64,000 nucleotides of DNA, from positions 1 through 64,000 of IMG/VR virus record IMGVR_UViG_3300046804_004208. One strand, 5' to 3'. Made by a program: the position numbers and the translations under genes. Shown here in pieces: positions 1-21,507 of the stretch (position 1 is the stretch's first letter; every line of letters starts with the position of its first letter). The notes under the pieces were generated by a model. The model worked only from the letters and a program-made list of their open reading frames with translations. It was not told the origin of the DNA and ran no database searches. The DNA comes from a virus.

Positions 1-27
1 GGCAAATCCTACTGGGTGGCAGTTTAG
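1..27 (+). CDS. 3' end of a possible upstream tiny gene (partial)
   Basis: Frame 1 reads GKSYWVAV and then TAG at 25-27. It is followed by a G/C hairpin and a promoter-leader, the same gene-end, hairpin, promoter layout seen throughout the island. Only eight codons are inside the window, so this rests on context alone. Confidence 0.3.
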   Translation, partial: GKSYWVAV

Positions 28-35
28 ATCCGCCA

Positions 36-55
36 GGGGGGCACACCCGCCCCCC
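36..55 (+). terminator. G/C hairpin before first island gene
   Basis: GGGGGGC (36-42) and GCCCCCC (49-55) can form a 7-bp stem with a 6-base loop. There is no T tract, so termination is uncertain. It occupies the same place relative to the next -10 box as the hairpins further along the island. Confidence 0.45.
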
Positions 56-58
56 GTG

Positions 59-88
59 CTACAGTACCCAAGCAACCGACACCCCACC
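59..88 (+). promoter_or_regulatory. Type-A promoter-leader, copy 1
   Basis: A stretch of about 30 bases beginning GCTACAGTACCC is shared perfectly with copy 2 (263-292). It contains a -10-like TACAGT (60-65) and leads into the ATG at 89 with no Shine-Dalgarno sequence. No good -35 hexamer lies 17 bp upstream. The AGCAA-CCG-CACCC pattern before the ATG resembles the type-B leaders downstream, which suggests a common origin. Confidence 0.5.
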
Positions 89-259
89 ATGACCGACCGC
101 ACCCTCCGCAATGCCATCGCTGCCATGCTCTTCTGCTCTGTGAGCATCGTGGCAGGTGCCTGGACCCTGAAGGCCGCGGCAACCGTTGACGCCCACCAGG
201 AGCGCATGGCAGACGCCCTCTGCACCGCCGACCCTGCCTGGTGTGGTGAGCGCCGCTGA
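89..259 (+). CDS. Tiny membrane-anchored protein, unknown
   Basis: A 56-aa protein, not recognised. Residues about 8-31 form a hydrophobic segment rich in Ala, Val, Leu and Ile, flanked by Arg at the N-terminus, so an inner-membrane anchor or signal anchor is likely. The C-terminal part is polar with two Cys. The start at 89 was preferred over an in-frame ATG at 56 because the conserved leader ends exactly at 89 and the upstream codons encode the leader itself. The gene is GC-rich (many GCC/CTG/CGC codons), unlike the AT-rich phage body. Confidence 0.65.
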   Translation: MTDRTLRNAIAAMLFCSVSIVAGAWTLKAAATVDAHQERMADALCTADPAWCGERR

Positions 260-262
260 CCT

Positions 263-296
263 GCTACAGTACCCAAGCAACCGACACCCCACACCC
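263..296 (+). promoter_or_regulatory. Type-A promoter-leader, copy 2
   Basis: Repeats the copy-1 leader (59-88) starting 4 bases after the stop of the preceding gene. It contains TACAGT (265-270). No hairpin lies in this gap, so the second gene could also be read through from the first. Confidence 0.5.
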
Positions 297-476
297 ATGG
301 CGATCTTTTCACAGTGCTCCGACCTGCAGACCCGCGAAACCATGTGGGTCGCTCGCAAGACAGACGACGCACCCCAGACCCGCTTCGCTGGACAGATCAA
401 CCCTGCCGAAGGGTACTGGTGGGCAGCACGTTACGCCGAACGCTACGCCGACGACGTGGTGCCCCTGGAGGGTTGA
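297..476 (+). CDS. Tiny GC-rich island protein, unknown
   Basis: A 59-aa soluble protein, not recognised. It is rich in Tyr, Trp and Ala near the C-terminus (GYWWAARYAERYADDV) and acidic at the end. The start is fixed by the shared leader that ends just before this ATG; an in-frame ATG at 186 would overlap the previous gene. The TGA stop (474-476) lies inside the -35 hexamer of the next promoter, so gene end and promoter overlap. Confidence 0.6.
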   Translation: MAIFSQCSDLQTRETMWVARKTDDAPQTRFAGQINPAEGYWWAARYAERYADDVVPLEG

Positions 477-526
477 CCCCTGCCCCCTGACCCTGTAGAA
501 TTCCAGAGCAAACCGCACCCCACCCC
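473..526 (+). promoter_or_regulatory. Type-B sigma70-like promoter and leader, unit 1
   Basis: TTGACC (473-478), exact 17-bp spacer, TAGAAT (496-501) preceded by TG. The 19-base core at 492-510 is repeated seven times in the island. The leader before ATG 527 differs from the later consensus in its last bases. No Shine-Dalgarno sequence. Confidence 0.75.
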
Positions 527-691
527 ATGCTGGACGGAACCATCGCCACCGCCTTCCACGACCTGACCTCCTTCCAACTGGAGGAGTGGCTGTGGGAAGG
601 CAACCCCACCACCAAGGAGCAGCGGGCCATCCTGAAGGAACTGGCAACCCGCCAGCAGCGCCTGGAAGCAATCGCTGACCTGCTCTGGTGA
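527..691 (+). CDS. Tiny helical island protein, unknown
   Basis: A 54-aa protein beginning MLDGTIATAF, not recognised. It is predicted mostly helical with alternating Leu and charged residues (LEEWLW, EQRAILKELA, QQRLEAIADLLW), which could form a small helical hairpin. It is preceded by a full -35/-10 promoter and followed by a perfect hairpin. Its GC-rich codons match the other island genes. Confidence 0.6.
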   Translation: MLDGTIATAFHDLTSFQLEEWLWEGNPTTKEQRAILKELATRQQRLEAIADLLW

Positions 692-698
692 CCCCTAC

Positions 699-760
699 GG
701 GGCACCTTGACGGGTGCCCCACCACCCTGTAGAATTCCAGAGCAAACCGCCACGGACCTG
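699..760 (+). promoter_or_regulatory. Type-B promoter unit 2 with -35 in hairpin loop
   Basis: GGGGCACC (699-706) pairs perfectly with GGTGCCCC (713-720). The 6-base loop, TTGACG (707-712), is exactly the -35 hexamer. TAGAAT (730-735) follows after 17 bp. The leader core is at 726-744. The hairpin could end the upstream transcript while the loop supplies the next -35 box. Confidence 0.75.
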
Positions 761-967
761 ATGACCACCCTGACCCTGACCGTGACCCCTGCCATCGCTG
801 ATGAGATCTGCCACGCTCTGATCGACGCTGGTATCCGCTGGGGCGAACTGGAGACTGCTGCCCGCAACGGTGAGAACGGCATGGCACCCAGCGCCTGCCG
901 CAGCATCCGTGAGAGCGCCTTTGCCATCCGCACCATGATCCGTGAGCAGATGGCAGAGCAGATCTGA
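761..967 (+). CDS. Tiny island protein, unknown
   Basis: A 68-aa protein, not recognised. A Thr-rich start (MTTLTLTVTPAIADE) is followed by Ala- and Arg-rich helices, suggesting a small soluble alpha-helical protein. The start is fixed by the conserved leader; the in-frame ATG at 707 lies inside the promoter hairpin and would translate the leader. It has its own promoter and no close downstream partner. Confidence 0.6.
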   Translation: MTTLTLTVTPAIADEICHALIDAGIRWGELETAARNGENGMAPSACRSIRESAFAIRTMIREQMAEQI

Positions 968-974
968 CCCCCCA

Positions 975-1034
975 GGGGGGTTGGCAAACGACCCCCCATC
1001 CTGTAGAATTCCAGAGCAAACCGCAACGCACCCG
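975..1034 (+). promoter_or_regulatory. Type-B promoter-leader unit 3
   Basis: TTGGCA (981-986), 17 bp, TAGAAT (1004-1009). G6 (975-980) and C6 (992-997) form a stem enclosing the -35 box. The leader from CCTGTAG (1000) to the ATG at 1035 is identical to those before the genes at 1331, 1588 and 1960. Confidence 0.75.
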
Positions 1035-1259
1035 ATGACCACCGCCCTCCGCGACTGCCTCAACGTGTACGCCCCTGGCACCACCTTCTCCGACATCCTG
1101 TGGGATTGCTCTCACCCTGCCGACGACACCATCGCCTGGCACATCGCCCTGGAGTCTGCAGAGATGCACTCCGCCCTCTACGACTTCCGCAAGGACTACG
1201 GGCACCTGCAGGGTGAGCGCATCGACTGCGGTGAGTTCCTCTCCTGGCTGGGGTACTGA
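1035..1259 (+). CDS. Tiny acidic island protein, unknown
   Basis: A 74-aa acidic protein, not recognised, with Cys at several positions and an aromatic C-terminus (CGEFLSWLGY). The start is set by the repeated leader; upstream in-frame codons only translate the promoter region. GC-rich codon use as in its neighbours. Its own promoter suggests expression independent of the flanking genes. Confidence 0.6.
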   Translation: MTTALRDCLNVYAPGTTFSDILWDCSHPADDTIAWHIALESAEMHSALYDFRKDYGHLQGERIDCGEFLSWLGY

Positions 1260-1267
1260 TCCGCTGA

Positions 1268-1330
1268 GGGGGTGGGTTGACCCCTGCCCCCCGACCCTGT
1301 AGAATTCCAGAGCAAACCGCAACGCACCCG
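1268..1330 (+). promoter_or_regulatory. Type-B promoter-leader unit 4
   Basis: TTGACC (1277-1282), 17 bp, TAGAAT (1300-1305). An imperfect G-run/C-run hairpin (G-rich 1268-1276, C-rich 1281-1292) again wraps the -35 box. The leader is the 39-base consensus form ending at the ATG at 1331. Confidence 0.75.
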
Positions 1331-1528
1331 ATGAGCAGCACCTGCCTCTACCGCATCGAACTGGATCGCGCCGATGGCACCACTGCCGTAGAGTTCCGCC
1401 GCCGCCGTCGTCCCACGACTCCTAAAGGGTTCGATCGCCAGCACAACAACGTGGTCAACTCTATCCTTGAGGAGATCCGCTACTACCGCATCGAAGGGTG
1501 GAAGCGCCTGACCGTGACGCGGGTGTGA
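1331..1528 (+). CDS. Tiny basic island protein, unknown
   Basis: A 65-aa basic protein, not recognised. A run of five Arg (FRRRRRP) in the middle and further Arg/Lys near the C-terminus suggest nucleic-acid or acidic-surface binding, but this is inference from charge only. The start is defined by the conserved leader. It ends 6 bases before the promoter of the next gene. Confidence 0.6.
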   Translation: MSSTCLYRIELDRADGTTAVEFRRRRRPTTPKGFDRQHNNVVNSILEEIRYYRIEGWKRLTVTRV

Positions 1529-1530
1529 GG

Positions 1531-1587
1531 GGGTCGACCCTCGGCACCCGACCCTGTAGAATTCCAGAGCAAACCGCAACGCACCCG
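1531..1587 (+). promoter_or_regulatory. Type-B promoter-leader unit 5 (weaker -35)
   Basis: TCGACC (1534-1539) replaces TTGACC, then 17 bp to TAGAAT (1557-1562). GGGTCGACCC (1531-1540) is a perfect palindrome over the -35 box. The leader is the full consensus. The changed -35 base may weaken this promoter. Confidence 0.65.
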
Positions 1588-1890
1588 ATGCCTGCCACCA
1601 CCGCCACCGCCTTCACCCCCGACCAGATGCTCTACCTGGGGCACTCCGTGTTCAGCAGCGCCATGCGCTCCTGGGCACTGGTGATGAACAACGACAACGA
1701 TGCCGAACTGCTGGTGCTGTTCAACAGCAGCGACACCGTGTACCGCTACGCCTTCCGCTCCTGGGAGGATGCCCGCAACTGGGATGAGATCCGCAAGCAG
1801 GGTGAGGATGAGGATGCCGACCGCATCTCCTGGGGGCGCTGCTTCCACCGCTTCTTGAGCGAAGGGGCGATCCTGCCCATCGCCGCCTGA
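1588..1890 (+). CDS. Small island protein, unknown
   Basis: A 100-aa protein, the longest in the island, not recognised. It has a mixed alpha/beta look: hydrophobic stretch SWALVMN, then AELLVLFNSSDTVYRYAF, an acidic patch (EDEDAD) and an aromatic helix (SWGRCFHRFL). The ATG at 1588 follows the conserved leader; an in-frame upstream ATG at 1498 lies inside the previous gene. GC-rich codon use. It is followed by a perfect hairpin-promoter. Confidence 0.65.
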   Translation: MPATTATAFTPDQMLYLGHSVFSSAMRSWALVMNNDNDAELLVLFNSSDTVYRYAFRSWEDARNWDEIRKQGEDEDADRISWGRCFHRFLSEGAILPIAA

Positions 1891-1897
1891 ACCCTAC

Positions 1898-1959
1898 GGG
1901 GCACCTTGACGGGTGCCCCCTGACCCTGTAGAATTCCAGAGCAAACCGCAACGCACCCG
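1898..1959 (+). promoter_or_regulatory. Type-B promoter unit 6 with -35 in hairpin loop
   Basis: GGGGCACC (1898-1905) and GGTGCCCC (1912-1919) form a perfect 8-bp stem whose loop is TTGACG (1906-1911), the -35 box. TAGAAT (1929-1934) follows after 17 bp. It nearly duplicates unit 2 (699-735), including the bases just upstream. Confidence 0.75.
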
Positions 1960-2220
1960 ATGCTCACCTCCATCATCCGCACCGCGATCCGCACCCGCCT
2001 CATCAACGACGGCCCGATGACCTGCAGCGATCTGGTTCGCGCCATGGGCATGGACCCCCGCCGCCATAAGGGCACCATCCACGCCGTGATGGTTGACCTG
2101 GAGAAGGCAGGCATCCTGGATTCCACCCGCAGCGACAACGGCAAGCGTGACCTCTGGTTCATCGTGCCCACCGCGATCCGCAAGCGTGATCGCCTTGCCG
2201 CCGCCATGGCAGGCATCTGA
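1960..2220 (+). CDS. Small winged-helix-like protein
   Basis: An 86-aa protein. The pattern of an N-terminal helix, DGPMTCSDLVRAMG, a second helix (HKGTIHAVMVDLEKAGIL) and then an SDNGKRDLWFIV hairpin resembles a winged helix-turn-helix fold. That suggests a small DNA-binding regulator, possibly of the island promoters or host genes; the function is inferred from pattern only. The start directly follows the consensus leader. GC-rich codons. Confidence 0.6.
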   Translation: MLTSIIRTAIRTRLINDGPMTCSDLVRAMGMDPRRHKGTIHAVMVDLEKAGILDSTRSDNGKRDLWFIVPTAIRKRDRLAAAMAGI

Positions 2221-2227
2221 TCTGCTG

Positions 2228-2291
2228 GGGGTGGGTTGACCCCTGCCCCCCGACCCTGTAGAATTCCAGAGCACACCACCCCCATACGAGA
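2228..2291 (+). promoter_or_regulatory. Type-B promoter unit 7 with divergent leader
   Basis: TTGACC (2236-2241), 17 bp, TAGAAT (2259-2264). G- and C-runs flank the -35 box as an imperfect hairpin. The core at 2255-2273 is conserved, but the leader diverges after GAGCA and is 2 bases longer than the consensus, ending at the ATG at 2292. Confidence 0.7.
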
Positions 2292-2588
2292 ATGGACTTC
2301 ACCATCACCCGCCTGCCCCGCCGTGGTCCCCGCAAGGGTGAGACTCTGACCCGCAACGCTCAGCACGGTGCTGGATCCGCCGTGGGTTCTGTTCGTGATT
2401 CTGACCTGCCCGCTGGTGGATTCTCCCATGCCGTTGGCGCTGGCAAGGGACTGACCATCACCCGCGTCAGTGGGTTGGGGCGTCAGTGGGTTGGCGATAA
2501 AGACGCCAACGCCTCCCGCTTCGCCGCCCAGGCGAAGGCAGACCGAATCGCTGCCGCCCGTGACCGCCTGGCAGAGCGGCAGGGGTGA
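2292..2588 (+). CDS. Small basic Gly/Arg-rich protein, unknown
   Basis: A 98-aa basic protein, not recognised. The first half is Gly/Arg-rich and low in hydrophobics (RLPRRGPRKGE). The C-terminal 30 residues are an Ala/Arg helix (AAQAKADRIAAARDRLAERQ). TITR appears twice (residues about 4-7 and 56-59), hinting at an internal duplication. It is the last gene of the GC-rich island and is followed by a hairpin. Confidence 0.6.
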   Translation: MDFTITRLPRRGPRKGETLTRNAQHGAGSAVGSVRDSDLPAGGFSHAVGAGKGLTITRVSGLGRQWVGDKDANASRFAAQAKADRIAAARDRLAERQG

Positions 2589-2596
2589 CAGTTCGT

Positions 2597-2615
2597 GGGG
2601 CGGCACACCCGCCCC
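2597..2615 (+). terminator. G/C hairpin closing the island
   Basis: GGGGCGG (2597-2603) pairs with CCGCCCC (2609-2615) around a 5-base loop, 9 bases after the stop of the last island gene. It closely resembles the hairpin at 36-55, including the CACACC core. There is no clear T tract. Confidence 0.5.
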
Positions 2616-2835
2616 TCATTCGTTCGTGAAGCAGCAGTTAATTGTATAACGTTATCGTTATGGCGGCGGGCCGTGTTTATAAAATCGATGGGTCCCACCA
2701 GTCTACAAAGTGTTACGAAAGGCATCGATATAATACCTTAAAAACAAAAAAATCCGGAATGAAAGAAAAGACTTAAAAGTTCATTGAAAATACACAAATC
2801 ATATATAATTTCAAAGTAAAAAATATATTAAAAAA
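2616..2835. other. Intergenic transition from GC-rich to AT-rich DNA
   Basis: No gene is seen. Composition changes within about 100 bases from strongly GC-rich to strongly AT-rich. Possible signals are TATAAT at 2729-2734 and at 2804-2809, the second 27 bases before the next ATG with TTGAAA upstream (2784-2789) at a short spacing. TCCGGA occurs at 2753-2758 and again inside the next gene at 2848-2853, each after an A-rich run. Confidence 0.5.
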
Positions 2836-3009
2836 ATGAAAAAAAAATCCGGAGATGAAAAACGCCCTATACAGGTTGATACAGTTAGTGGTGAGTATTA
2901 TGTTACCATTCCCGAGTGGATTATGAATGAATTATCTTGGTATGAGGATACTGAGATTAATTTTTTAATTGAAAATGGAGATGTTATTATATCAGAGTGT
3001 AATGAATAA
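2836..3009 (+). CDS. AbrB-like swapped-hairpin small protein
   Basis: A 57-aa protein. The pattern SGEYYVTIPEWIMNEL, then WYEDTEINFLIENGDVIISE, matches the SpoVT/AbrB swapped-hairpin fold (strand, IPxxI helix, Leu-Gly/Asp-rich strand, final II strand). Such proteins are usually dimeric DNA-binding regulators; the phage role is unknown. It is the first AT-rich gene after the island, and the next gene starts close to its stop. Confidence 0.6.
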   Translation: MKKKSGDEKRPIQVDTVSGEYYVTIPEWIMNELSWYEDTEINFLIENGDVIISECNE

Positions 3010-3016
3010 TAAGATA

Positions 3017-3184
3017 ATGAAAGTTTATAACATATATGCAAAGAACAAGTGTTTATATCATCTTATAAGTGAACAAGAGTTTGAAATTACATGGAAAACA
3101 CTCAAAAATATGGTCGGTTTAATGAAGACCGACTACAGTGTTGAGGACCTTTCATATGAAGAGGCGTTCATTGACATTGTATAG
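3017..3184 (+). CDS. Conserved small cyanophage protein, unknown
   Basis: A 55-aa protein beginning MKVYNIYAKN. It resembles short conserved cyanophage proteins of unknown role that end in a DYSVEDLSYEE-like motif. The start at 3017 was chosen because it follows the stop of the previous gene; an in-frame ATG at 3002 overlaps that gene and is possible. No catalytic motif is visible. Confidence 0.6.
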   Translation: MKVYNIYAKNKCLYHLISEQEFEITWKTLKNMVGLMKTDYSVEDLSYEEAFIDIV

Positions 3185-3221
3185 ATAATATTGTATGATA
3201 TGATTGTAACTACTTTCAATT

Positions 3222-3977
3222 ATGGCAAAAGGATTTACTGTTAAGGCAAAGGCACCACTTACAAGCCAAGAAATGGAATGGGATTATGACAAAGCAAGAG
3301 AAATTCTTAAAGGTAAAAGTATAGTATTTTGTCTTCCTGGTAGAGGAGTTTCCTATACTTATCTTAAGAATTTTGTACAGCTATGTTTTGATCTTGTACA
3401 ATCTGGTGCAAGTATTCAAATATCTCAAGATTATTCTTCCATGGTTAACTTTGCAAGATGCAAATGCCTGGGAGCAAATGTTCTAAGGGGACCAGATCAA
3501 TTACCATGGGATGGTAAATTAAACTATGATTATCAGTTATGGATTGATAGTGATATTGTGTTTACAACTGAAAAGTTTTTACAACTAGTTTTAATGGATA
3601 AAGACATTGCAGCTGGTTGGTATTGTACAGAAGATGGTATGACATCTTCTGTTGCTCATTGGTTAGAAGAAGATGATTTTAGAACAAATGGTGGAGTGAT
3701 GAATCATGAGACCATTGAAACAATGAAAAATCGTAGAAAACCATTTACAGTTGATTATACTGGATTTGGTTGGTTACTAATTAAACATGGAGTTTTTGAG
3801 CATCCAGAAATGAAGTATCCATGGTTTGCACCAAAAATGCAAGTTTTTGAATCTGGAGATGTTCAAGATATGTGTGGAGAGGATGTAAGTTTCTGTCTGG
3901 ATGCAAAGGAAGCGGGATTTGAAATTTGGTGCGATCCTCGTATTAGAGTTGGTCACGAGAAAACAAGAATTATTTGA
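3222..3977 (+). CDS. GT-A-type glycosyltransferase
   Basis: A 251-aa protein. The segment LWIDSDIVFTTEKF (about residues 106-119) carries a DxD motif typical of GT-A glycosyltransferases, which bind a nucleotide sugar through a metal. The later GFGWLLIKHGVFE and GEDVSFCLDAKEAGFEIWCDP blocks match the acceptor and base regions of the Anp1/GT2-like enzymes common in cyanophages. It may glycosylate virion proteins or DNA, or alter the host surface; the substrate is unknown. No membrane segment is visible. The next gene starts at the base after its stop. Confidence 0.7.
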   Translation: MAKGFTVKAKAPLTSQEMEWDYDKAREILKGKSIVFCLPGRGVSYTYLKNFVQLCFDLVQSGASIQISQDYSSMVNFARCKCLGANVLRGPDQLPWDGKLNYDYQLWIDSDIVFTTEKFLQLVLMDKDIAAGWYCTEDGMTSSVAHWLEEDDFRTNGGVMNHETIETMKNRRKPFTVDYTGFGWLLIKHGVFEHPEMKYPWFAPKMQVFESGDVQDMCGEDVSFCLDAKEAGFEIWCDPRIRVGHEKTRII

Positions 3978-4145
3978 ATGTCTGACAATACACGATACAA
4001 TGTTTTTTGCAAAGGTCGGAAAATTTATTCCGATCTAGATCAAAATTCGTTTTTTGATGTAATGGAGGATCTGGCACAGGAATTTTATGAAAATGGAACA
4101 CCAGATCCTTCTGATATAACCACAGAAATTATTGGAGAAAATTAA
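3978..4145 (+). CDS. Small acidic protein, unknown
   Basis: A 55-aa acidic protein beginning MSDNTRYNVF, not recognised. The ATG immediately follows the glycosyltransferase stop and its own stop is directly followed by the next ATG, so the three genes look translationally coupled. The central helix FFDVMEDLAQEFYENG and an acidic C-terminus are the only visible features. Confidence 0.6.
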   Translation: MSDNTRYNVFCKGRKIYSDLDQNSFFDVMEDLAQEFYENGTPDPSDITTEIIGEN

Positions 4146-4301
4146 ATGGCAGTAAAAGCAAAAGGTGGACTGAATAAGCACTCGTCTTATATTCCTGGTC
4201 CTCCTAAAAAATCTCGTCAAGGAGATGGTAATGGGACCAAATATGCAGCATCTTCTCGTAATAAAGCACGTAAAGCATATAGGGGTCAAGGAAAAGGATG
4301 A
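4146..4301 (+). CDS. Small basic conserved cyanophage protein
   Basis: A 51-aa very basic protein (MAVKAKGGLN... ending in RGQGKG) of a type often seen in T4-like cyanophages beside baseplate genes. It contains PGPPKKSRQG and SSRNKARKAYRG, rich in Lys, Arg, Gly and Ser, with no hydrophobic core, so it is likely disordered and possibly nucleic-acid binding. Its stop overlaps the next start (ATGA). Confidence 0.65.
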   Translation: MAVKAKGGLNKHSSYIPGPPKKSRQGDGNGTKYAASSRNKARKAYRGQGKG

Positions 4302-4909
4302 GTTATTTCCTAAATGTCAATGATGAATGGAATCAAATACATCACAAAGACATTTGGGCATATAACAAATTGTCATTAAGTCGGATTTTGGAATACAAAT
4401 GTGGTCCTTCGGGTACTACTGTTCCAAAATCCGACTTTTATATTGTTCGGCCATGTATCAATTTAATGGGTATGGGCCGTTTTGCTCGTAAAGAATGGAT
4501 AGAGGATACGACAGAACATTTTCATCCATCAGAATTTTGGTGTGAAATCTTTCAAGGACCTCATTTAAGTGTTGATTTTCATGAGAAGAAGTCAAAATTG
4601 GTGGTTTTGGGTGAGAAAACTGCCAATGACCTCCTATACAAGTGGCGTAAATGGACTAAAATAGATGTAGAAGTAGATTTTCCTTTAATTTTATGCGATT
4701 TGGTTGGTAATTATGAGTGGATCAATTGTGAATTTATAGGAAATAAGTTAATTGAAGTTCAATTTAGGCAAAATCCAGATTTTAGATATAAAAATTCGGT
4801 TGCAGTTCCAATATGGGAGAAAAAAATAAATAAAAATATAAAAGGATATCGTTTTATTGAAGACTTAGAATACGATACATATAAAAGAAAAGGATTTTAT
4901 GTTGATTAA
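4298..4909 (+). CDS. Conserved cyanophage protein, unknown
   Basis: A 203-aa soluble protein beginning MSYFLNVNDEWNQI. It belongs to a family I recognise as conserved in T4-like cyanophages but without assigned function. Notable blocks are WAYNKLSLSR, FYIVRPCINLMGMGR and YEWINCEFIGNKLIEVQFR. No clear catalytic motif. It overlaps the previous gene by 4 bases, indicating coupled translation. The stop lies in the first arm of an inverted repeat. Confidence 0.65.
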   Translation: MSYFLNVNDEWNQIHHKDIWAYNKLSLSRILEYKCGPSGTTVPKSDFYIVRPCINLMGMGRFARKEWIEDTTEHFHPSEFWCEIFQGPHLSVDFHEKKSKLVVLGEKTANDLLYKWRKWTKIDVEVDFPLILCDLVGNYEWINCEFIGNKLIEVQFRQNPDFRYKNSVAVPIWEKKINKNIKGYRFIEDLEYDTYKRKGFYVD

Positions 4910-4955
4910 GGGATAGAAACCCCTTAAAAAGTTCTAATTTTCTTTCATTTAGAAC
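4906..4955. terminator. Two inverted repeats after the conserved gene
   Basis: TTAAGGG (4906-4912) pairs with CCCTTAA (4921-4927). GTTCTAA (4931-4937) pairs with TTAGAAC (4949-4955). The second loop is T-rich. Together they fill the gap between two genes and may form a weak terminator or an RNA-processing site. Confidence 0.4.
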
Positions 4956-4961
4956 AAATTT

Positions 4962-5213
4962 ATGGCAATTCAACCAAATCCAGACAGAAATCAAGACTAC
5001 ATGTACAAAATGTGGGGAACAACTCATTTAGTGACTGATTATAATCAATCAAATTCAAAAAAAGTAATTCAAGAAATCATGCATGATGAAATTTTACCAA
5101 AAAAACATCATTTAAAAGAACAATCAGATCTTCATAAGATGATTCGTAATGATGATAACTATGATGATTGGGATTATGGTACAGAACCAAATTATGGAGA
5201 AACTTGGGCATAA
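4962..5213 (+). CDS. Conserved small cyanophage protein, unknown
   Basis: An 83-aa protein beginning MAIQPNPDRNQDYMYKMWGT, with a very acidic aromatic tail (NDDNYDDWDYGTEPNYGE). It is similar in layout to small proteins placed before gene 25 in cyanophages; function unknown. It is followed by a CATAAATA late-promoter-like box that overlaps its stop codon. Confidence 0.6.
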   Translation: MAIQPNPDRNQDYMYKMWGTTHLVTDYNQSNSKKVIQEIMHDEILPKKHHLKEQSDLHKMIRNDDNYDDWDYGTEPNYGETWA

Positions 5214-5216
5214 ATA
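5209..5216 (+). promoter_or_regulatory. Late promoter variant CATAAATA
   Basis: Differs in the first base from the T4 late consensus TATAAATA and lies 27 bases before the gp25 start, a spacing like the other late boxes here. It would be read by RNA polymerase with gp55. Confidence 0.45.
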
Positions 5217-5243
5217 AAGTTAATGTAAAGTCTTGTTTGGTAA

Positions 5244-5648
5244 GTGGCACAGATACAGAAAATATCACAATCATTCAAAGATATTAGTTTGTCTCTAGAT
5301 GTTCACCCGATTACAAAAGATTTATTGACTATAAAAGATTCGGATGCAATTAAAAAATCAATCCGAAACTTAATACAAACAATTCCTGGAGAAAAATTTT
5401 TTAATTCATCTTTTGGATCGGAATTAAGAGTAAGTTTATTTGATTTTATTGATTTTGGTACTGCATCTGTGCTTCAACAACAAATTGAAATAGCTGTTTC
5501 AAATTATGAACCAAGAGTTGAAAATGTATCAGTTGAAGTAAATCCAAAACCAAATGATAATGCATTTGAAATTTCAGTATATTTTGATATTATCGGACAA
5601 GAATTTCCAAGTCAAAAATTCAACTATATTTTAGAGGCAACAAGATAA
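5244..5648 (+). CDS. gp25: gp25-like baseplate wedge subunit
   Basis: A 134-aa protein, close to the 132 aa of T4 gp25, a lysozyme-related wedge and sheath-initiating component also found in type VI secretion systems. Diagnostic pattern: LSLDVHPITKDLLTIKDSDAIK near the N-terminus, IRNLIQTIPGEKFFNSSFGSEL, then a beta-rich end. It begins the wedge operon 25-6-7-like-8. The start codon is GTG, the only in-frame start that leaves the N-terminus intact (MAQIQKISQS). Confidence 0.9.
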   Translation: MAQIQKISQSFKDISLSLDVHPITKDLLTIKDSDAIKKSIRNLIQTIPGEKFFNSSFGSELRVSLFDFIDFGTASVLQQQIEIAVSNYEPRVENVSVEVNPKPNDNAFEISVYFDIIGQEFPSQKFNYILEATR

Positions 5649-5649
5649 A

Positions 5650-7512
5650 ATGCCTTTTACCAAATTTACCAATTTAGATTTTGATCAAATAAAGGAATCC
5701 ATTCGGGATTACCTTCGTGCAAATTCAAATTTTACAGATTATGATTTTGAGGGGTCAAATTTTTCCGTTCTTATTGATACTCTTGCATATAATACTTATA
5801 TAACGGCATTTAACTCAAACATGGCCGTAAATGAATCTTTTTTAGATTCTGCCACGGTAAGAGAAAATGTAGTTTCTCTTGCAAGGAATATCGGATATGT
5901 TCCAAGATCTAAAACTTGTGCAAAAGCTACGGTATCATTTACAATACAAACTTCAAGTACAGAAGGGCAACTTACTTTAAAATCTGGATTAGTATGCGTT
6001 GGTAATGTAGATAATACATCTTATGTTTTTTCTATTCCTCAAAATATTACTACTTCTATTAATAATGGAGAAGCAAGGTTTAGTGACATAGAAGTTTATC
6101 AAGGAGTACTATTAAACAAGCAATTTGTAGTTGATAACACTATTAACCAAAGATTTATTTTAGATAATTCTAATATTGATACTGATACTTTAGTTGTAAT
6201 AGTTGGTACAAGACAATATAGGAAGATTGATAATATTTTAAATTTAGATGGATCATCAGAAATATATTTAATTCAAGAAATTGCAGATGAAAAATATGAA
6301 ATTCTATTTGGAGATGGTATATTGGGAAAAAAACTTACTCATGGCGAAACTATAAAAATTAGTTATATAACAACTGATGGAAAAGAAGGCAATGGACCTT
6401 CATTATTTTCATATTCTGGAACTACAGTAGATTCATTGGATAGATTTGTTTCTCCAACAAATACAGTCACAATTGAGACAATAGTAAAAGCATCTAATGG
6501 TGGTGATATAGAACCAATTGAATCAATCAAATATTTTGCTCCAAGAGTATATTCATCACAATATCGTGCTGTTACTGCAATTGATTATGAAGCAATTATT
6601 CAAAAAATTTATTCTGATACAGAATCTGTTTCTGTAGTTGGTGGAGAAGAATTAAATCCTCCACAATATGGAAATGTTTTAATTAGTATAAAGCCCAAAA
6701 ATGGCATATCTATTTCAGATTTTACTAAATCTAGAATTTTAACAGAATTAAAAAAATATTCAGTAAGTGGAATTAACCAACAGATTATTGATCTTAAACT
6801 TCTTTATGTTGAAATTGAAAGCTATATTTACTACAATACTTCATTATCTTCAAATGCAAATGATGTAAGAACTAAAATTTTAAATACTTTAGAAAAATAT
6901 TCTAAGACTATAGATTTAAATAAATTTGGAGGAAGATTTAAATACAGTAAAGTTTTACAGTTAATTGATAATGTTGATTCTTCAATAACATCAAACATTA
7001 CTCGTGTTAAAATGAGAAGAAATATGAATTGTGTATTAAATACTTTTGCTCAATATGAGATATGCTTTGGAAATCAATTCCATAAAAATATAGGTGGATA
7101 TACGATAAAAAGTACAGGATTTAATATTGTTGGAGAACCGGATATGGTTTATTTTGTCGATGTTCCAAATCCAGATAGTAATATAGGAACACTTTCAATT
7201 GTCAAACCAAATGAAGAACTTAATAATTATCAAGTAGTCAAAAAGTCAATAGGAACAGTAGATTACACAAAAGGTGAAATTATAATTAATACAATAAATG
7301 TTTTATCTACAGAATTGGATGGTGGTATTATTGAAATTCAGGCATATCCAGAATCAAATGATATTATTGGACTTAAAGATCTTTATCTTGTTTTTGATAC
7401 TTCAAAAAGCACCATAAATATGGTAAAAGATACTATTTCTTCTGGTGATAAACTATCTGGCATAGACTTTTTAGTAACTTCAAGCTATTCAAACGGAAAA
7501 ATAACGAGGTAA
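5650..7512 (+). CDS. gp6: gp6-like baseplate wedge subunit
   Basis: A 620-aa protein (T4 gp6 is 660 aa). The N-terminal FTNLDFDQIKESIRDYLRAN and the NPxx-like region YNTYITAFNSNMAVNESFLDSATVRENVVSLARNIGY are characteristic of gp6/gpJ baseplate proteins, which dimerise to form the ring of the hexagonal baseplate. It starts 1 base after gp25, so the two are coupled. No unusual truncation. Confidence 0.92.
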   Translation: MPFTKFTNLDFDQIKESIRDYLRANSNFTDYDFEGSNFSVLIDTLAYNTYITAFNSNMAVNESFLDSATVRENVVSLARNIGYVPRSKTCAKATVSFTIQTSSTEGQLTLKSGLVCVGNVDNTSYVFSIPQNITTSINNGEARFSDIEVYQGVLLNKQFVVDNTINQRFILDNSNIDTDTLVVIVGTRQYRKIDNILNLDGSSEIYLIQEIADEKYEILFGDGILGKKLTHGETIKISYITTDGKEGNGPSLFSYSGTTVDSLDRFVSPTNTVTIETIVKASNGGDIEPIESIKYFAPRVYSSQYRAVTAIDYEAIIQKIYSDTESVSVVGGEELNPPQYGNVLISIKPKNGISISDFTKSRILTELKKYSVSGINQQIIDLKLLYVEIESYIYYNTSLSSNANDVRTKILNTLEKYSKTIDLNKFGGRFKYSKVLQLIDNVDSSITSNITRVKMRRNMNCVLNTFAQYEICFGNQFHKNIGGYTIKSTGFNIVGEPDMVYFVDVPNPDSNIGTLSIVKPNEELNNYQVVKKSIGTVDYTKGEIIINTINVLSTELDGGIIEIQAYPESNDIIGLKDLYLVFDTSKSTINMVKDTISSGDKLSGIDFLVTSSYSNGKITR

Positions 7513-7513
7513 T

Positions 7514-10500
7514 ATGATCACAACTGGTTTTGATACTAGAGTAAAAATCCAACAAATTGTTGAAAATCAGTTACCAGAATTTGTTCTATCAGAAAATCCG
7601 AAGGTTTCTGAATTTTTAAAGCAATATTATATTTCACAAGAATATCAAGGTGGACCATTAGATATTGCAGAAAATCTTGATCAATATATTAATTTAAATA
7701 ATTTAACTCCAGAAGTTATTTCTGGTATAACAAGTATAACTAAAAGTATTTCTTCTACCAATGATATAATATTTGTTAATACGACTAAAGGATTTCCTAA
7801 AGAATATGGATTACTAAAAATTGATGATGAAATTATCACATATACTGGAATTACCACAAATTCTTTTACAGGTTGTGTAAGGGGATTTAGCGCAATTTCA
7901 TCTTATAAAAATGACTTAAATTCAGATGAATTAGTATTTTCAAGCACAAGGTCCTCCTCACATATAAAAAATAGTAAGGTTGAAAATTTAAGTGCTTTAT
8001 TTTTAAAGGAATTTTATAAAAAAATAAAAATTCTGTTAGCTCCTGGATTTGAAAATATTGATTTTGTTTCAGGATTAAACGTAAATAATTTTATAAAGGA
8101 AATAAAATCTTTCTATCAGTCAAAAGGGACAGAAGAATCTTTTAAAATACTTTTTAATGTTTTATATGGAATAACTCCAAAAGTTCTTAATTTGGAAGAA
8201 TTTTTAATAAAACCATCTTCCAGTGAATTTATAAGAAGAGAGATTTTAGTAACTGAAAGAATAAGTGGTGATCCAAATAAGTTAATCGGTCAAATAGTTA
8301 AAAGTTATGATGACTCTGCTTCTGGACCAGTATCCGAAGTTGAATTGATAACTAGAAACAATAAAGTTTATTACAAACTACAATTATTTTCTGGATTTAA
8401 TGATAAAACTTTGATTGAAGGTCAATTTGAAATAACCGGAGAAACTAAATCTATAGATTCAGTTTCAATTGGATCTTCAATAATTACAGTTGATTCAACT
8501 ATTGGATTTTCACAATTCGGAACATTATATTCTGGTGATAATGTAATTTCATATTCAGATAAATCTATCAATCAATTTTTTGGATGTTCCGGGATTATTA
8601 AAAAAATAAATCCAAGAGATCAAATTAGATCTAATAATATCATTTATGGGTATGAAGATGGAAAAATTGACAAAAAAGTAGAATTGAGGGTAACAGGTGT
8701 ACTTTCAGAGTTGGAAGATACCCAAAATGTATTTCTTTTATCAAAAGGAGATGTAATTGAAATAACTAGTATTGGTGATAAAATTGAAAATCCTTCTGGA
8801 TTAAAAACATATAAAGAAGAGGTGTTTAATTCTTTTATTTACAATACTTCTTCTAGATATGAAATTGAATCTTTTTCTGGTAATAATGTTTTTTTATATG
8901 ATATTCCAGATAAATCTAGTTTAAAAATCGGAGATCATGTAGATATTTTAAATAGAAATTCTGAGAGTATTGTTTTAGAAAACGTAATAATTTTAAATAT
9001 TATTTCAAACAAATTAATATTAAACGTAAATATAACTAATGTAGATCAAAAAACAGAATTAAGTATTAGAAGAAAATTAAGTTATTCTTCTAGTTCAGGA
9101 ATACCACTGAAGTATGATAATATAACTTCAAATATACAAAACACTTATATTGAAAAAATTGGAGATGAAGAATTTATTAATATTGCAGCAAACTCTCTTC
9201 CAGATTATCCTATAGGTTGCAATTATAAATCTTCTTCTTTAATAATAAATTCTTCCTCAAATTTGGATCAAATATTTCAAGGATATGATGAAGGAGATCT
9301 AACATATTCTATAATATCATTTAAAAATAATGTTCCATTTAATAATGGAGATGCTGTTGTTTATACTGGATCTAATAAACCTTTATTTAACTTATCTTTT
9401 GGAAAAATATATTATATTCAAGTTTTAGTAAATGGAACCGAAAAAAACAAAATAAGGTTATATAATTCTAGATCTTTTATAGAATCCAACAATTATATTA
9501 AATTTGATTTATCTGAGGGTTATGTAGGAACTCACACATTTACCTTAGAATCTCAAAATGATAAATTAATTGAACCAAAAAAATATCTATTAAAGTTTCC
9601 TTTAAAACAAAATATAGAATCTGGAAAAAATATTCCAACACCAGTTGGATCAACAGGAGTTTTAATAAATGGTGTTGAAATTGTAAATTATAAATCAAAT
9701 GATAAATTATATTTCGGACCAATAGAAAATGTAAGAATTTATAATTCTGGGAAAGATTATGATGTAATAAATTTACCAAAAATTAAAATTTCTTCTCCCA
9801 TTGGGGTTGGGTCTACTGCTTATGCCGATGCGGTTATTAGAGGTTCTGTTAGAGAGGTAATAGTAGATCCAAATCAAGTTGATTTGGTAAGAGTTGTTTC
9901 TGCATCAATTTCTGGAGGAAATGGATCTGGTGCTGTATTGGAACCAATCTTAGAAAAAACTTTTAGAGAAATTGAATTTGATTCTGATCTATCACTATAT
10001 GGTGGAGGGATAGATAAAGATAATGATAGTCTTACATTTTTAAAAAATCATAACTTAAAAAATGGAACACCAATTGTATATAACAATAATGGAAATACTT
10101 CCATAGGTATTGGAACTTTTGATGGATTAAATACCGATCAAAATTTATACTTGGAGAATGGTGAAACATATTACCCAGAAATAATTAATTCTAGAGCAAT
10201 AAAATTATATAAAACTATTTCTGATTTAAATTCTGGAATTAATACTGTAGGATTTACTACTGTGAATTCTGGTGGTATTCATAAATTTAGGCTTTTAGAA
10301 GGAAAAAATGTTTTAAAAAATATCAAAGTTTTAAATAGCGGAAGTGGATATGAAAATAGATCTTTAAAGGTTAATCCATCTGGAATTTCAACAATTAATG
10401 ATAGTATTAGTTTCATAAACCATAATTTTAATGATGGAGATTTGGTCGAGTATCAAACGACTGGATCTGTTATTTCTGGATTGTCTACAGAAAAAAATTA

Positions 10501-13500
10501 TTATGTTTTAAAACTTGATGATAATTCTTTTAGACTTTGTGATGCTGGATACGTTGGAGTTGGTGCAGCAAAAACTGATTATTTAAGAAAAAAATACGTA
10601 AACTTTGAAAGTTCTGGAATTGGATATCAAATATTTTCATATCCAAAAATTACATTATCTTTGAATGTTGAATACTCTGGTTTTATAGGAACAATAACTG
10701 CAACACCAATTGTTAGGGGAAATTTAGTAGATTGTTACTTATATGAAAATGGATCTGGATATGGTTCACAAATTATGAATTTTCATAAAAAACCAAGTAT
10801 ATCAATATTAAATGGTGTTAATGCCCAAGTTAAACCAATTGTAAATAAAGGAAAAATAATTGCTGTAGAACTACAAAACGGTGGTCAAAATTATTATTCA
10901 ACTCCAGATTTAGTGGTAAATGGAAATGGAACGGGTGCAAAATTAAGAGCTGTTATTTCAAATGGATCAATAGTTAAAGTCATAGTTATAAATCAAGGTG
11001 TAAATTATGATAAAAATAATACTACAGTAAGTGTTATTTCTGCTGGAAGAAATGCAGTATTAAATTGTTCCGTGAAACCTTTAACAGTTAACAACTTTAA
11101 AAGATTTTCAGATGAAATAGCTCAAGAATTTAATGATAATTTATCTTATGGATTAGTTGGATATTCTACTATTAGAGAAGGTAGTAGTTTTTCAGATCCT
11201 ACATTAGAATCTGGACATTCAAAAATTATTGGATATGCATACGATGGAAATCCAATCTATGGACCTTTTGGATTTTCTGATCCAAACGACGATAATTCTA
11301 CTATAAAAAAATTAGAAACAGGATATGTTTTAGATCCTTCTTCAGTAAAAAGTAGACCATCAATTATTGATTTTGAACCTGGATTTTTTGTAGAAGATTA
11401 TATATTTTCTAATACTGGAGATTTGGATATTCATAATGGGAGATTTGCAAAAACTCCAGAATTTCCGGAAGGAATTTATGCATATTATGTTGGGGTAACA
11501 ACTGATACTAATACCAACACCTTAATTCCGAAATTTCCATATTTTATAGGAAATTTTTATCGTTCTTCATTAGATAATACTTCTATATTTGATCAATCGT
11601 TTGATTTTAATTCTTCAAATTTAGTAAGAAACACTTTTCCTTATAGATTAAATGAATTAAATTCCGGAAATGATTTTATACCAGAAGCAAATGACACTTT
11701 AAGACAAACTTCAATTATAAACTCAATTTCTTTAGGTGAAATTGAAGAAATTGAAATAAAAAATCCAGGAGAAAATTATGAAGTAAATGATTCTATCTCA
11801 ATTTTTTCAAAAACTGGAGGAGGATCTTCTGCAATCGTCAGTAAAATTAAAGGAAAGGAAATATATGGTTTAGAAACTAATTTTATTAAATATGAAAATG
11901 TTGTTTTTTCTTGGTTAGATGAAAATACTGTTTCTGCAAATATAAACCCACATCATAATTTTATAAACGGTGACAGTGTAAATATTTCTGGATTATCCAC
12001 AAGTATAAAAAATTTATCAGGATTTAAAGTAATTAGTTTTTCTCCAGAAGTAACAAGTTTAGCAAGTTCAATTTCTGCAAATTCAACTGTTGGTATTGTT
12101 ACAGATATAAGTATTTTTTCTCCAATATCGAAATTGAGTGTTGGCAGTTCAATTGGAATTGGAACAGAAACTTTTTCAGTTCTTAATATTTTTGATAATG
12201 AAAAAATATTAAGAGTTCGTAGAGGTGTTTCTGCTGGTCATTCTGAAGGATCATTAGTTAATAGTCTTTCAAATTTAATAACTTTAAAAGCAAATTGTCC
12301 ACAGTTTGATTCTACATTAAATAATATTGCTTATTTCAATCCTACTCTTTCTATTGGTGTCGGTACAATATCAGGATCTAATACAAATGTTTTATTTCCT
12401 ATTGGAAATTCTACAAGATTACTTTCTATTCCAACTCAAAGTATATATTTACCAAACCATAAATTTAAAAATAATCAAAAAGTATTATTATCAAAACCAC
12501 AATCTTCTTCACAATTAACTGTTAAAGATACTCCATCTGGATCATCTTTTAACTTACCTATAAGTGGAAATAGTCAATATGTTTATATAATTAATAAATC
12601 AAAAGATTATATTGGATTAGTTACTGAAGTTGGACTTACTACAACAACAAATGGATTATATTTTACTAATAATGGATCAGATAATTATCAATATAAATTA
12701 GAATCAGATTTTAATCAAGTTACTGGAGTATTACAAAAGGTTGAAACAAAAGTTTCATTATCAACATATCATGGACTAAGTTATGGTGATAAAATCGATT
12801 TAGTTGTAAATCCAAGTTTATCGGTTGGTATTGGAACTTCTTTAAGTATAAAATTAAAGTATAATGATCAATATGAAAAATTATTATTTAATCCAATTGG
12901 ATTTACTTCAACTTCCGTCAATATTTCTAATAATACAATCAATATAATAAATCATAAATTATCAACTGGAGATAAAATTTTATATACTTCAGAAGACTTA
13001 GTTTGTAGTGGATTATCTAGTGGTAAATATTTTGTTTATAGAAATGACGATAACTCCATAAGTTTGTGTGAAACTTATATTGATACTTTTTCAAATCCAC
13101 CAAATATAGTAAGCCTTGGTAGCACAGGAGGTAATTTACAAGAACTATCTTTAATTAATCCACAAGTAAAACTTTTTAGAAATAATAACTTAGTTTTTGA
13201 TACTAGTGATTCTAGTTTAATTAATTCAAATTTAAAAATATTTTATGATTCAAATTTTATTAATGAATTTGTTTCTGTTGGAACAACTAATTCATTTTTA
13301 ATTGAACAAACTGGAGAACCGGGGGTAGGAACTATATTTACGGACTCAAACATAACAATAAAATATAATCAAAAAATTCCAACAAAACTATACTATGCTC
13401 TTGAAAAAAATGGGACATTATTATCCAAAGACACTGAAGTAATTAATAATTCAGAAATATTGTATACTAATAGTCTCTATAATGGATCATACAATATATA

Positions 13501-16500
13501 TGGAATAGGAACCACAACTTTTAATATTAATTTAAATGATGTACCAGAAAAATTATCTTACAAAAAGTCCGAATGTTTTGATTTATCATATACAACAAAT
13601 TCCACCAATGATAGTGGACCAATTGACAAAATAAAAATTATATCTAGTGGATTTGGATATGATAGTTTACCTAATTTTGTTGGTGTTTCTACCATCAGTA
13701 GAGGTAAAAATGCAATTTTAAAATCAAAATCAAAATCAATAGGAAAAATAAATGATCTTCGTATTATTAATGAAGGTTTTGAGTATTCTTCAGATAAAAC
13801 ATTAAGACCAAAAGGAAAAATACCAACAGTTTTACAATTAGATAACAGCAGTAAATTAACTTCAGTTTCTGTTTTAAGTGGTGGAAGAAACTTTTTGTCT
13901 ACTCCTATTTTAGAATTAGTAAATAATTACACTAGAAAAAAAGTTAATAGTGGTATTTTAATTCCAGTTGTAAAAAATAATACTATAGTAGAAGTTAACG
14001 TAGTTGAAGAACCGTTGGGATTGCAATCAGTAGACCATACCATATTTACTACAAATAACAGTAATGGAATTCAAGTTTCTAAAATTCTTTCTTATACTAA
14101 TGGTATTGTTGAGTGTGAATTATCGACTCCACCTATTACTGGATTTTTAAATGTACCATTTAAACCTGGAGATAAAATATTTGTAGAAGGTATTTCAAAA
14201 GAATCCTTTACTGATGCATTAGGAAATACAACAACGCCTGGGAGTGGATTTAATTCTGTAGATCATGGATATGTATTTTTTACAGTAACTGAATTTAATA
14301 ATACAGATCCAGCGATATTAAAATATGATATATCTAAATTTACAGATAATGCAGGTGTTCCTAAAACATTACAAACAAATTATAGTTTAATTGTAAATCA
14401 AAAAAATTATCCAATATTTAGTATTGAGAAATCTTTAGCACAATTTTATGATAATGAAACTTTATTTGTTAATGGTTTAGAAACTGATTTAACTGTAAGG
14501 TCTTCAAATTATGATATTCTTAAAATATCTGGAGAATACCCAGTTAAATTGAATGATTTAATTTACGGAAAAATCTCAGGAAATTCTGCAACTGTTTCTG
14601 CAGTTAATAATTTTGAAAAATATTTTAAAGTAGATTATTCTAACAAAAGAAATTTTGACTGGAAAAATGATTTTGGAAAACTTAATAATGAAACACAAGT
14701 AATACAAGATAGTGACTATTACCAAACTCTTTCATACACAATTAAAAGTCCAATTTCTTATGAAGATTCTAAAGATTTTGTATCTAGGATGGTTCATCCT
14801 GTTGGAATGAAAAATTTTGCAGATATGGACATTTTTTCAAATTCTAATGTTTCAATTGCTGCTACACAGAATCTTTTACAAGTTCTTGATTTTGTCTCAG
14901 AACAAAGAGTGGATGTTGTCAGAAATTTTGATCTTGTAACTGATTATGAACCATTTTCAAATTCTTCAAATGCCATAAAGTTTAGGTATAAAAAATTATC
15001 AGACTATATTGATTGTAAAACAAATAGAGTTTTGCAAATTGATGATATAAGTTCTAGATTTTCTAGTCAAGAATTTAATAGAGATGCTTTTACTGAAGTA
15101 ATAGAATATCCAATTACAGATTTTTATTCTAAATTTTTAGTACAAGTTCATGATGAAGATAAACTAAGTTATCAGATCAGTGAAGTAGTAATCCTTAATA
15201 ATTTTGATAATACATTTACACTTAATAAATCAGATTTATACACGTTAGAAAAATTAGGAGATTTTACTGGAGAATTTGCACCTTCTGGAGATCCAGTATT
15301 AAAATTTATTCCAACAGATCCATATACAACTAATTATAATATTAAAGTTCATAGAGAAAGTTTTTCTCCAAATCCATTTAACATTGGTGTAGGATTTACT
15401 GATCTTGGATTTGTAAGGCTAACATCAAAAACTGAAAGAATGCCAAGATCATCTGGAATAAAAACTGATATTTTTATAGGATTATCTTCTTCATTCAATA
15501 CAATATATTCCAATATATTTGTTATGGATGAAGATACTTATGAAATGAATTATTTCGAAGTGATTGGATTTTATGATAGTAAAGATACGCACAAATCAGA
15601 ATTTTATTTTGATACTTATCCCTCTATAGGTGGATTATCTCAAGGATTTATTGGTACTTTTGGACTTTTTGTTGAAAACAATATTATAAAACTGCAATTT
15701 ACAAAAAATAATAATTTATCAAATATTTTAATAAAAGGAAAAACAGTTGGATTTGGTTCTACATCTGCAGGAATAGGTACATATAGATTTTTAGTTGCAG
15801 ATCAACTTGAAGGTACAGAAAAAACTTCTAAACTAGAGTCTAAACAATACAAAGGAACTGGAATTTCAACATTTATATCATATAATGCAGATGTAGAGTC
15901 TTCAGTTAAATCTTTAGTCAAAGTAGGTATAGGTACAACAGTAACTTCTCTACAGCAAGTTTTAGTATTATCAGATCTCAATAGAGTTAATATTCAACAA
16001 TATCCATTTGTTTCTGTTGGAAGCACTTCTGGTATAGGAACATTTGGTGTAACATTGAATAATAGTGTGGTTGATGTAATATTTTATCCAGACCCTCTAT
16101 ATTCTAGCAGTGAATACACAATTCAATCATTTAATCATTTTATGTTCTATGAAATTGATGAATTTAATATTCCAGAAGAATTAACTTATGGAACAGCAAA
16201 GGAGTCTTTTGATATATCATTTTACGGATCATTAAATGAGTTTGGAAAGGATAGATTAGATTTTGATTTAAACTATGAAAGAATTCCAATTTTTGAAAAA
16301 GTTTTTAATCCAAAAAATTCAAGTTTATTAGATTTGAGCACTGGAGTCTTTAAAATAAAAGATCATTTCTTCCAAACTGGAGAAGAATTAATATATACGC
16401 CTTCCTCAACTCTTATTGGAGTTCCTGGTGAACCACTTGGAATAGGTTCAACCTTAGTTAGTGGTACAACATTAATTGGAGATATTATAATTGGATTCTC

Positions 16501-21505: not shown

Positions 21506-21507
21506 AA

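Follow-up and report, generated by a model that had tools for sequence, protein, structure and literature searches.

How does a row of small, mutually unrelated phage genes come to stand behind near-identical promoters? This question is raised by the left end of the IMG/VR record IMGVR_UViG_3300046804_004208 (full length 103,861 bp), of which we analyzed bases 1-64000, hereafter the window. A G+C-rich island at this end carries nine genes of 54-100 amino acids (aa), as an earlier note on this DNA had described. With a probability of roughly 0.7, we propose that the island consists of one-gene cassettes that are joined by a composite hairpin/promoter element and exchanged among phages, with the functions inferred below. 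The evidence throughout is comparative sequence analysis, and the loci studied are metagenomic. The phage is T4-like, its gp23 gene being nearest to that of S-SRM01 (76%) and then to that of P-SSM2 (74%), and it is presumed to be lytic. In our reading, the island is the right-hand end of the hyperplastic region of a T4-like cyanophage (Kyanoviridae).

For the promoters, a consensus scan found exactly seven sigma70-type sites (Table 1), against 0.4 expected in shuffled sequence. All seven have a 17-bp spacer and the -10 hexamer TAGAAT. These type-I units span 473-2291, the distance from the -10 to the ATG is 25 nt (27 in the last unit), and the sequence TGTAGAATTCCAGAGCA is present seven times against 0.28 expected. 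The earlier note had read the same seven promoters with the same spacer, -10 and conserved leader, and had likened them to host sigma70 sites; at the sequence level, both statements hold. Four type-I leaders are indeed identical, across 38 bases with the ATG included and not across the 39 first reported. The type-I leader (about 25 nt) is C/A-rich and has no Shine-Dalgarno sequence. The second leader type that the note had seen in two more genes (type II, TGCTACAGTACCCAAGCAACCGACACCCCAC) was found in two copies ahead of the two upstream genes. Across 41 loci and the window, we counted 118 type-I units, with the window's own units entering twice (again through contig L008); an ATG-initiated open reading frame (ORF) of 52-100 aa follows 117 of them.

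A G+C hairpin closely follows the preceding stop codon in most units, usually starting about 7 nt after it, and its loop contains or touches the -35 hexamer. The hairpins upstream of the -10 in 64 distinct type-I copies have a median energy of -18.8 kcal/mol and a mean z-score of -2.0. The loop forms across copies include GGGGCACC-TTGACG-GGTGCCCC, GGGGCAGG-TTGACG-CCTGCCCC, GGGGAGGG-TTGACG-CCCTCCCC and others. The two arms covary: 7.40 of 8 positions are paired, against 6.62 +- 0.10 (maximum 7.04 in 1000) when the right halves were swapped among copies. No known RNA family was matched in positions 1-3000 of the window.

The nine window ORFs form separate, mutually unrelated families (designated F00, F01 and so on where clustered), and at least 20 families occur across the loci, so that the phrase "constant control unit, variable coding part" in the earlier note remains apt. 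When only genes behind type-I leaders are listed, the order is F01-F07-F00-F10-F11-F02-F06 in the window, F01-F10-F07-F00-F02-F03 in L014/L022, F01-F07-F00-F02-F03 in L020, and F00-F11-F02-F06 in L028. Of 39 distinct ends of homology blocks between the window island and other contigs, 26 fell within stop-to-start gaps (21% expected by length; binomial p ~2e-9, a guide only because the contigs are related and alignments extend through repeats), and 35 lay at most 12 nt from such a gap. The F00 family was found behind many different leaders. The leader distances were 0.151 within the same family, 0.185 within the same locus and 0.200 between unrelated leaders; leaders are thus only weakly tied to family or locus. 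Together with the block ends and with relatives of F00 and ORF 2 behind other leaders, these weak ties indicate that control element and gene recombine. Homogenization of leaders within a phage was rejected, as same-locus leaders are hardly closer than unrelated ones; since same-family leaders are somewhat closer, the pattern argues for reassortment and not for concerted evolution.

None of the nine window ORFs scored above the Pfam cut-off. The relatives of F10 in the phage collection are restricted to cyanophages, and a search of GenBank phages with the F02 and F00 proteins gave nothing convincing. The pN/pS ratios (nonsynonymous to synonymous polymorphism, from codon-position changes) are mostly 0.05-0.28; the exceptions are F04 (0.48), F05 (2.5, from eight changes) and F09 (0), with few pairs behind each. 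By this measure, the coding families are mostly under purifying selection. The structure model of F02 is a winged helix (pLDDT, predicted local distance difference test, 71; pTM, predicted template-modeling score, 0.56), and its best PDB matches are MarR-type regulators with E-values near 1e-3. F02 is therefore a probable winged-helix DNA binder, which is a lead and not an identification.

Many IMG/VR datasets contributed to the 41 stretches in which the exact type-I leader was found; there it lies in GC-rich islands whose flanks are mostly AT-rich. These islands nearly always stand shortly ahead of the baseplate genes g25-g6 of T4-like cyanophages. The earlier note had pointed to phage genomes and viromes as places to look for it; the viromes yielded these stretches, whereas BLAST of the type-I leader against GenBank phages gave chance-level matches only. 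In 10 longer records, exact matches to the leader core were limited to one island per record, and the others have two mismatches. No further site for the core 18-mer occurs in the whole 103,861-bp record. By the rule of our script, 32 of 40 loci have the right flank of the window adjoining the island, and alignments starting before the flank confirmed it in L008, L019, L028 and L041.

The array also extends to the left. Contig L008 (14,854 bp) is 100% identical to window 1-8818 and reaches 6,036 bp further left, where about ten more one-gene units occupy about 5 kb (reverse strand, oriented 763-6063). Most of these extra units have a third leader type (III), TATACTGATCTCAGTTCA or a variant, and many have a hairpin before the -10. 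The G+C of L008 declines gradually leftward to about 45%, whereas on the right the island drops sharply from about 64% to about 33% beyond ~2,590; the cassettes may therefore differ in age or source. The exact leader-III pattern occurs in 110 IMG/VR stretches. Among 129 distinct leader-III copies, a small ORF follows 121 (median 65 aa), and a hairpin is present in 81, against 12% in shuffles. The hairpin at the -35, the leftward extension, and the sharp step in G+C and in GC3 (G+C at third codon positions) are features that the earlier note missed.

Cultivated phages carry related units, and S-PM2 a related array. The type-III leader matches S-SRM01, S-PM2 and other GenBank phages, with one or two type-III units each in S-RIM32, S-WAM2 and S-SRM01. 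A direct-repeat search of S-RIM32, S-WAM2 and S-CAM1 found a few repeated elements and no dense type-I-like array. In S-PM2 (NC_006820.1), a GC-rich stretch (up to 63%) at ~21,500-25,000 (L139 2,500-6,000) has eight type-III-like leader matches and stands immediately before g25, whose GC3 is 25%. One of its units reads GGGAGCAGG-TTGACG-CCTGCTCCC, then TATACT, leader and ATG, with the -35 in the hairpin loop; the next unit stands before ORF 068, annotated as an anti-restriction protein. A YNGWTNY-TWNV protein type is common to the S-PM2 and L008 arrays; the L008 member matches DUF7249, and the S-PM2 ORF at 23,789 was assigned by inspection. The annotated S-PM2 ORFs 067 and 070 are antisense to the array and overlap plus-strand ORFs with type-III leaders, and for that reason they are probably wrong calls. 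The putative Pho box of S-PM2d250 at -30 (PMC10976474, Table 2), CCTATACT GAT CTCAGTTC, equals the type-III promoter-leader sequence, so it may be a core promoter and not a PhoB site. S-RIM32 (L049) has five copies of a 28-nt repeat starting with GACAGT, at 10748, 11923, 15479, 16019 and 16237; some of them form GACAGT-N6-ACTGTC beside small genes, and the repeat may serve as a regulator site or belong to a promoter cassette of another type.

We weighed several other explanations against this body of evidence. Because the G+C step is sharp and the island sits at the end of the contig, a chimeric assembly had to be excluded. L008 spans the junction with 8,818 identical bp, although it possibly comes from the same virus and sample, so that independence must rest on other contigs; the same island and junction recur in many contigs of other IMG datasets, and S-PM2 likewise carries a GC-rich array there. 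These independent contigs refute the chimera, which is hardly credible any longer, and the array that the earlier note had left open to misassembly is real. The composition could also suggest that the island was recently acquired from a GC-rich host or plasmid and brought its own promoters, given a GC3 of 82% against 10-13% in neighboring phage genes (g25 13%, g6 12%, the long tail gene 10%). We consider this improbable: the leader is kept at one locus in the 41 stretches, F00 relatives occur in more than 100 viral stretches, F10 relatives in the phage collection are all cyanophage, and a search of 84,980 bacterial and archaeal species genomes, covering one protein family (F02) and one leader form, found neither the exact leader nor an F02 relative. 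The earlier note had instead favored gene-cassette duplication, in which one promoter-gene unit was copied and its coding part diverged. Near-identical control elements in tandem would fit such a history, but the coding parts are separate families without detectable similarity whose identities are conserved across phages, F10 relatives occur across marine cyanophages without this leader array, and the same family stands behind different leaders. Duplication is accordingly very improbable, and we replace it by a model in which unrelated genes are shuffled through the shared promoter/hairpin element, which recombines with whatever gene follows; the comparison of loci shows this shuffling at the sequence level.

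The hairpins admit another reading, namely that their main role is to stabilize or process a polycistronic early message, their overlap with the -35 being incidental to packing. The absence of a U-run after the hairpins and the leader-III hairpins, which mostly have no -35-like loop, agree with it. We still regard it as unlikely, though it deserves more weight than the preceding ones, since the type-I -35 keeps its place in or next to the loop even as both arms vary in concert, and a promoter match stands at every type-I gene. Several observations do weigh against the composite element that we prefer. Besides the missing U-run, the terminator scan calls no terminator in any gap, and transcript termination by the hairpins therefore stays a prediction. 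A good hairpin is lacking at unit 1 (z 0.1), and for unit 2 the minimum-energy fold of a longer stretch favors another pairing despite a perfect 8-bp hairpin. A -35-like loop was found in 7 of the 129 distinct leader-III copies; with 81 hairpins among them, the hairpin is the more general feature and the -35 in the loop typical of type I. The block ends in related contigs are also non-independent, and their alignments tend to run through shared repeats.

In the composite-element model, a cassette would be a short gene plus an element that closes gene N and opens gene N+1, in the order stop codon, G+C hairpin with the -35 in or at its loop, -10 TAGAAT, leader of ~25 nt, and ATG. The anatomy, conservation, covariation and exchange of the elements are evident from the sequences compared. 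Unmodified host RNA polymerase would transcribe each gene separately, early in infection. Cyanomyoviruses have neither alt/modA/modB nor motA/asiA, and the transcription of their early genes is ascribed to the unmodified host RNA polymerase with sigma70 (PMC2984593); because these T4 genes modifying the polymerase are missing, early and individual transcription of the units is the most likely prediction. The most likely role of the hairpin is to terminate or shield the upstream RNA, and it would curb read-through across the next promoter. Its overlap with the next -35 keeps the element very compact and would let it act as a homology arm, and phage recombination would swap, insert and delete genes through these near-identical arms. 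The products would act on the host, in takeover or counter-defense. An early takeover role is plausible, and the annotated anti-restriction gene of the S-PM2 array and the probable winged helix of F02 favor it.

The GC-rich codons would suit early translation with host tRNAs. The island's codon use fits the tRNAs of a GC-rich host, while its intergenic G+C is also 65% and mutational or conversion bias could be the cause instead. At 33%, the GC3 of the gp23 gene (46644-48053) exceeds that of the portal gene, the long tail gene, g25 and g6 (10-14%), which would be expected under selection on codon choice in highly expressed genes. A wider reading, which we hold tentatively and at somewhat less than even odds, is that the g25 locus of the Kyanoviridae may be a dedicated gene-exchange platform. 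The -35 of one gene would be the loop of the preceding gene's 3' hairpin, the element would serve as transcript end, early promoter and recombination site at once, and host-codon-adapted takeover and counter-defense genes would circulate apart from the AT-rich core.

Table 1. Features of the island and its right-hand neighbors in the window.
Feature	Position	Strand	Remarks
Hairpin GGGGGGC-ACACCC-GCCCCCC	36-55	+	Precedes first type-II leader; same sequence in L008
Type-II leader, copy 1	57-87	+	-10 TACAGT 60-65, no -35 match; repeat family D3, 100% to copy 2
ORF 1, 56 aa	89-259	+	No family match
Type-II leader, copy 2	262-292	+	Repeat match to copy 1
ORF 2, 59 aa	298-476	+	Relative (F18) behind type-I leader in L034
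Type-I unit 1	473-526	+	-35 TTGACC 473-478, -10 TAGAAT 496-501, leader to ATG 527
ORF 3 (F01), 54 aa	527-691	+	Family in 14 loci
Hairpin GGGGCACC-TTGACG-GGTGCCCC	699-720	+	Loop is -35 of unit 2; same 22-mer in 24 IMG/VR stretches
Type-I unit 2	707-760	+	-35 TTGACG 707-712, -10 730-735, leader to ATG 761
ORF 4 (F07), 68 aa	761-967	+	Family clustering
Hairpin GGGGGGTTG-GCAAA-CGACCCCCC	975-997	+	Overlaps -35 of unit 3; z -1.8
Type-I unit 3	981-1034	+	-35 TTGGCA 981-986, -10 1004-1009
ORF 5 (F00), 74 aa	1035-1259	+	Relatives encoded by 126 viral stretches
Hairpin GGGGGTGGG-TTGACC-CCTGCCCCC	1268-1291	+	Loop is -35 of unit 4; z -2.0
Type-I unit 4	1277-1330	+	-35 TTGACC 1277-1282, -10 1300-1305
ORF 6 (F10), 65 aa	1331-1528	+	phrog_5495; relatives in 51 Synechococcus/Prochlorococcus phage records
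Hairpin around -35 TCGACC	1520-1550	+	Unit 5; starts inside the end of ORF 6; z -2.0
Type-I unit 5	1534-1587	+	-35 TCGACC 1534-1539, -10 1557-1562
ORF 7 (F11), 100 aa	1588-1890	+	Family clustering
Hairpin GGGGCACC-TTGACG-GGTGCCCC	1898-1919	+	Loop is -35 of unit 6; z -3.4
Type-I unit 6	1906-1959	+	-35 TTGACG 1906-1911, -10 1929-1934
ORF 8 (F02), 86 aa	1960-2220	+	Probable winged helix
Hairpin GGGGGTGGG-TTGACC-CCTGCCCCC	2227-2250	+	Loop is -35 of unit 7; z -1.7
Type-I unit 7	2236-2291	+	-35 TTGACC 2236-2241, -10 2259-2264, 27 nt from -10 to ATG 2292
ORF 9 (F06), 98 aa	2292-2588	+	F03 fills last slot in other contigs
Closing hairpin GGGGCGG-CACAC-CCGCCCC	2597-2615	+	Follows last gene, contains no promoter; from sequence
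g25	5244-5648	+	Conserved right-hand neighbor of island
g6	5650-7512	+	Conserved right-hand neighbor of island, after g25; baseplate genes g25-g6

Two further features lie to the right of the island. A perfect 16-bp inverted repeat (4378-4393 and 4422-4437, 28 nt apart) is within a conserved ORF at 4298-4909 (phrog_3577). Right after g6, positions 7514-19897 form a single ORF of 4,127 aa; the corresponding place in S-PM2 and S-RIM32 is taken by a giant virion structural protein.

Promoter-early stem-loops (PeSLs), reportedly described by Arbiol in 2010 and Comeau in 2014 and said to form mini-circles by recombination between neighbors, offer one comparison. The passages on them in PMC4503421 present PeSLs as "mobile regulatory cassettes", with RB49/phi1 among the T4-type phages that have them. 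The features that we compared follow that source and general background, and were checked on the RB49 sequence. As in PeSLs, a sigma70-like early promoter, recognized here at the sequence level, is joined to a stem-loop supported by fold and covariation, the location is among small non-core genes in the hyperplastic region of a T4-type phage, and gene exchange has its junctions in the element. In RB49, however, a hairpin is placed upstream and has a U-run, or else it falls in the spacer or surrounds the -10, whereas the hairpins of the island enclose the -35; the -35 flanks pair at 5.09 of 8 positions in RB49 (33 consensus promoters) against 7.40 in the island. The island also differs in that a U-run is missing, each gene has a promoter to itself and the G+C contrasts strongly with the surroundings. 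Because its stem-loop placement differs from RB49, we call the island PeSL-like and not a plain PeSL member.

Lambdoid morons, which are expressed from a resident prophage, are isolated insertions of one gene each, equipped with a promoter and an end signal of its own. The island genes are likewise single, with their own promoters and a G+C unlike their surroundings, but they stand in tandem in a T4-like phage and have one element in common. Integron cassettes are promoterless genes with attC sites, accompanied by an integron integrase. An integron-like origin was dropped, since each type-I gene has its own promoter; attC sites and an integrase were not specifically searched. Unlike the island, novel ORFs of other T4-like phages match the G+C of their genome (PMC1524935). 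The parts of PMC8707807 that concern halovirus HF2 describe repeated intergenic sequences bearing promoters in a tailed virus; these promoters are of the archaeal TATA type, and the same parts describe no comparable array of exchanged small genes. The ORFanage of S-PM2, likewise one of the Kyanoviridae, is a region of ORFans that shares with the island its place left of g25 and its shuffled synteny; Puxty et al. reported one early promoter and two potential stem-loops in it, and judged PeSL exchange unlikely (PMC4503421). The type-III array of S-PM2 at 21.5-25 kb adjoins this ORFanage and is undescribed in that paper. Our results suggest that PeSL-type exchange may operate densely right beside it.

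For phage biology, the locus bears on the route by which small host-takeover and counter-defense genes are gained and lost, as one can read here directly what unit is exchanged, where its junctions lie and which families, at least 20, make up the pool. It can be found in metagenomes by its leader, and a related array is at hand in cultivated S-PM2. An "ORFan region" becomes a set of defined promoter-gene units, each open to mapping, counting and testing on its own, and the codon adaptation of early genes can be tested in a phage that combines GC3 values of 82% and 10%. In related viruses, the same genes recur in a different order, as if small, probably host-takeover genes were swapped like plug-in cartridges.

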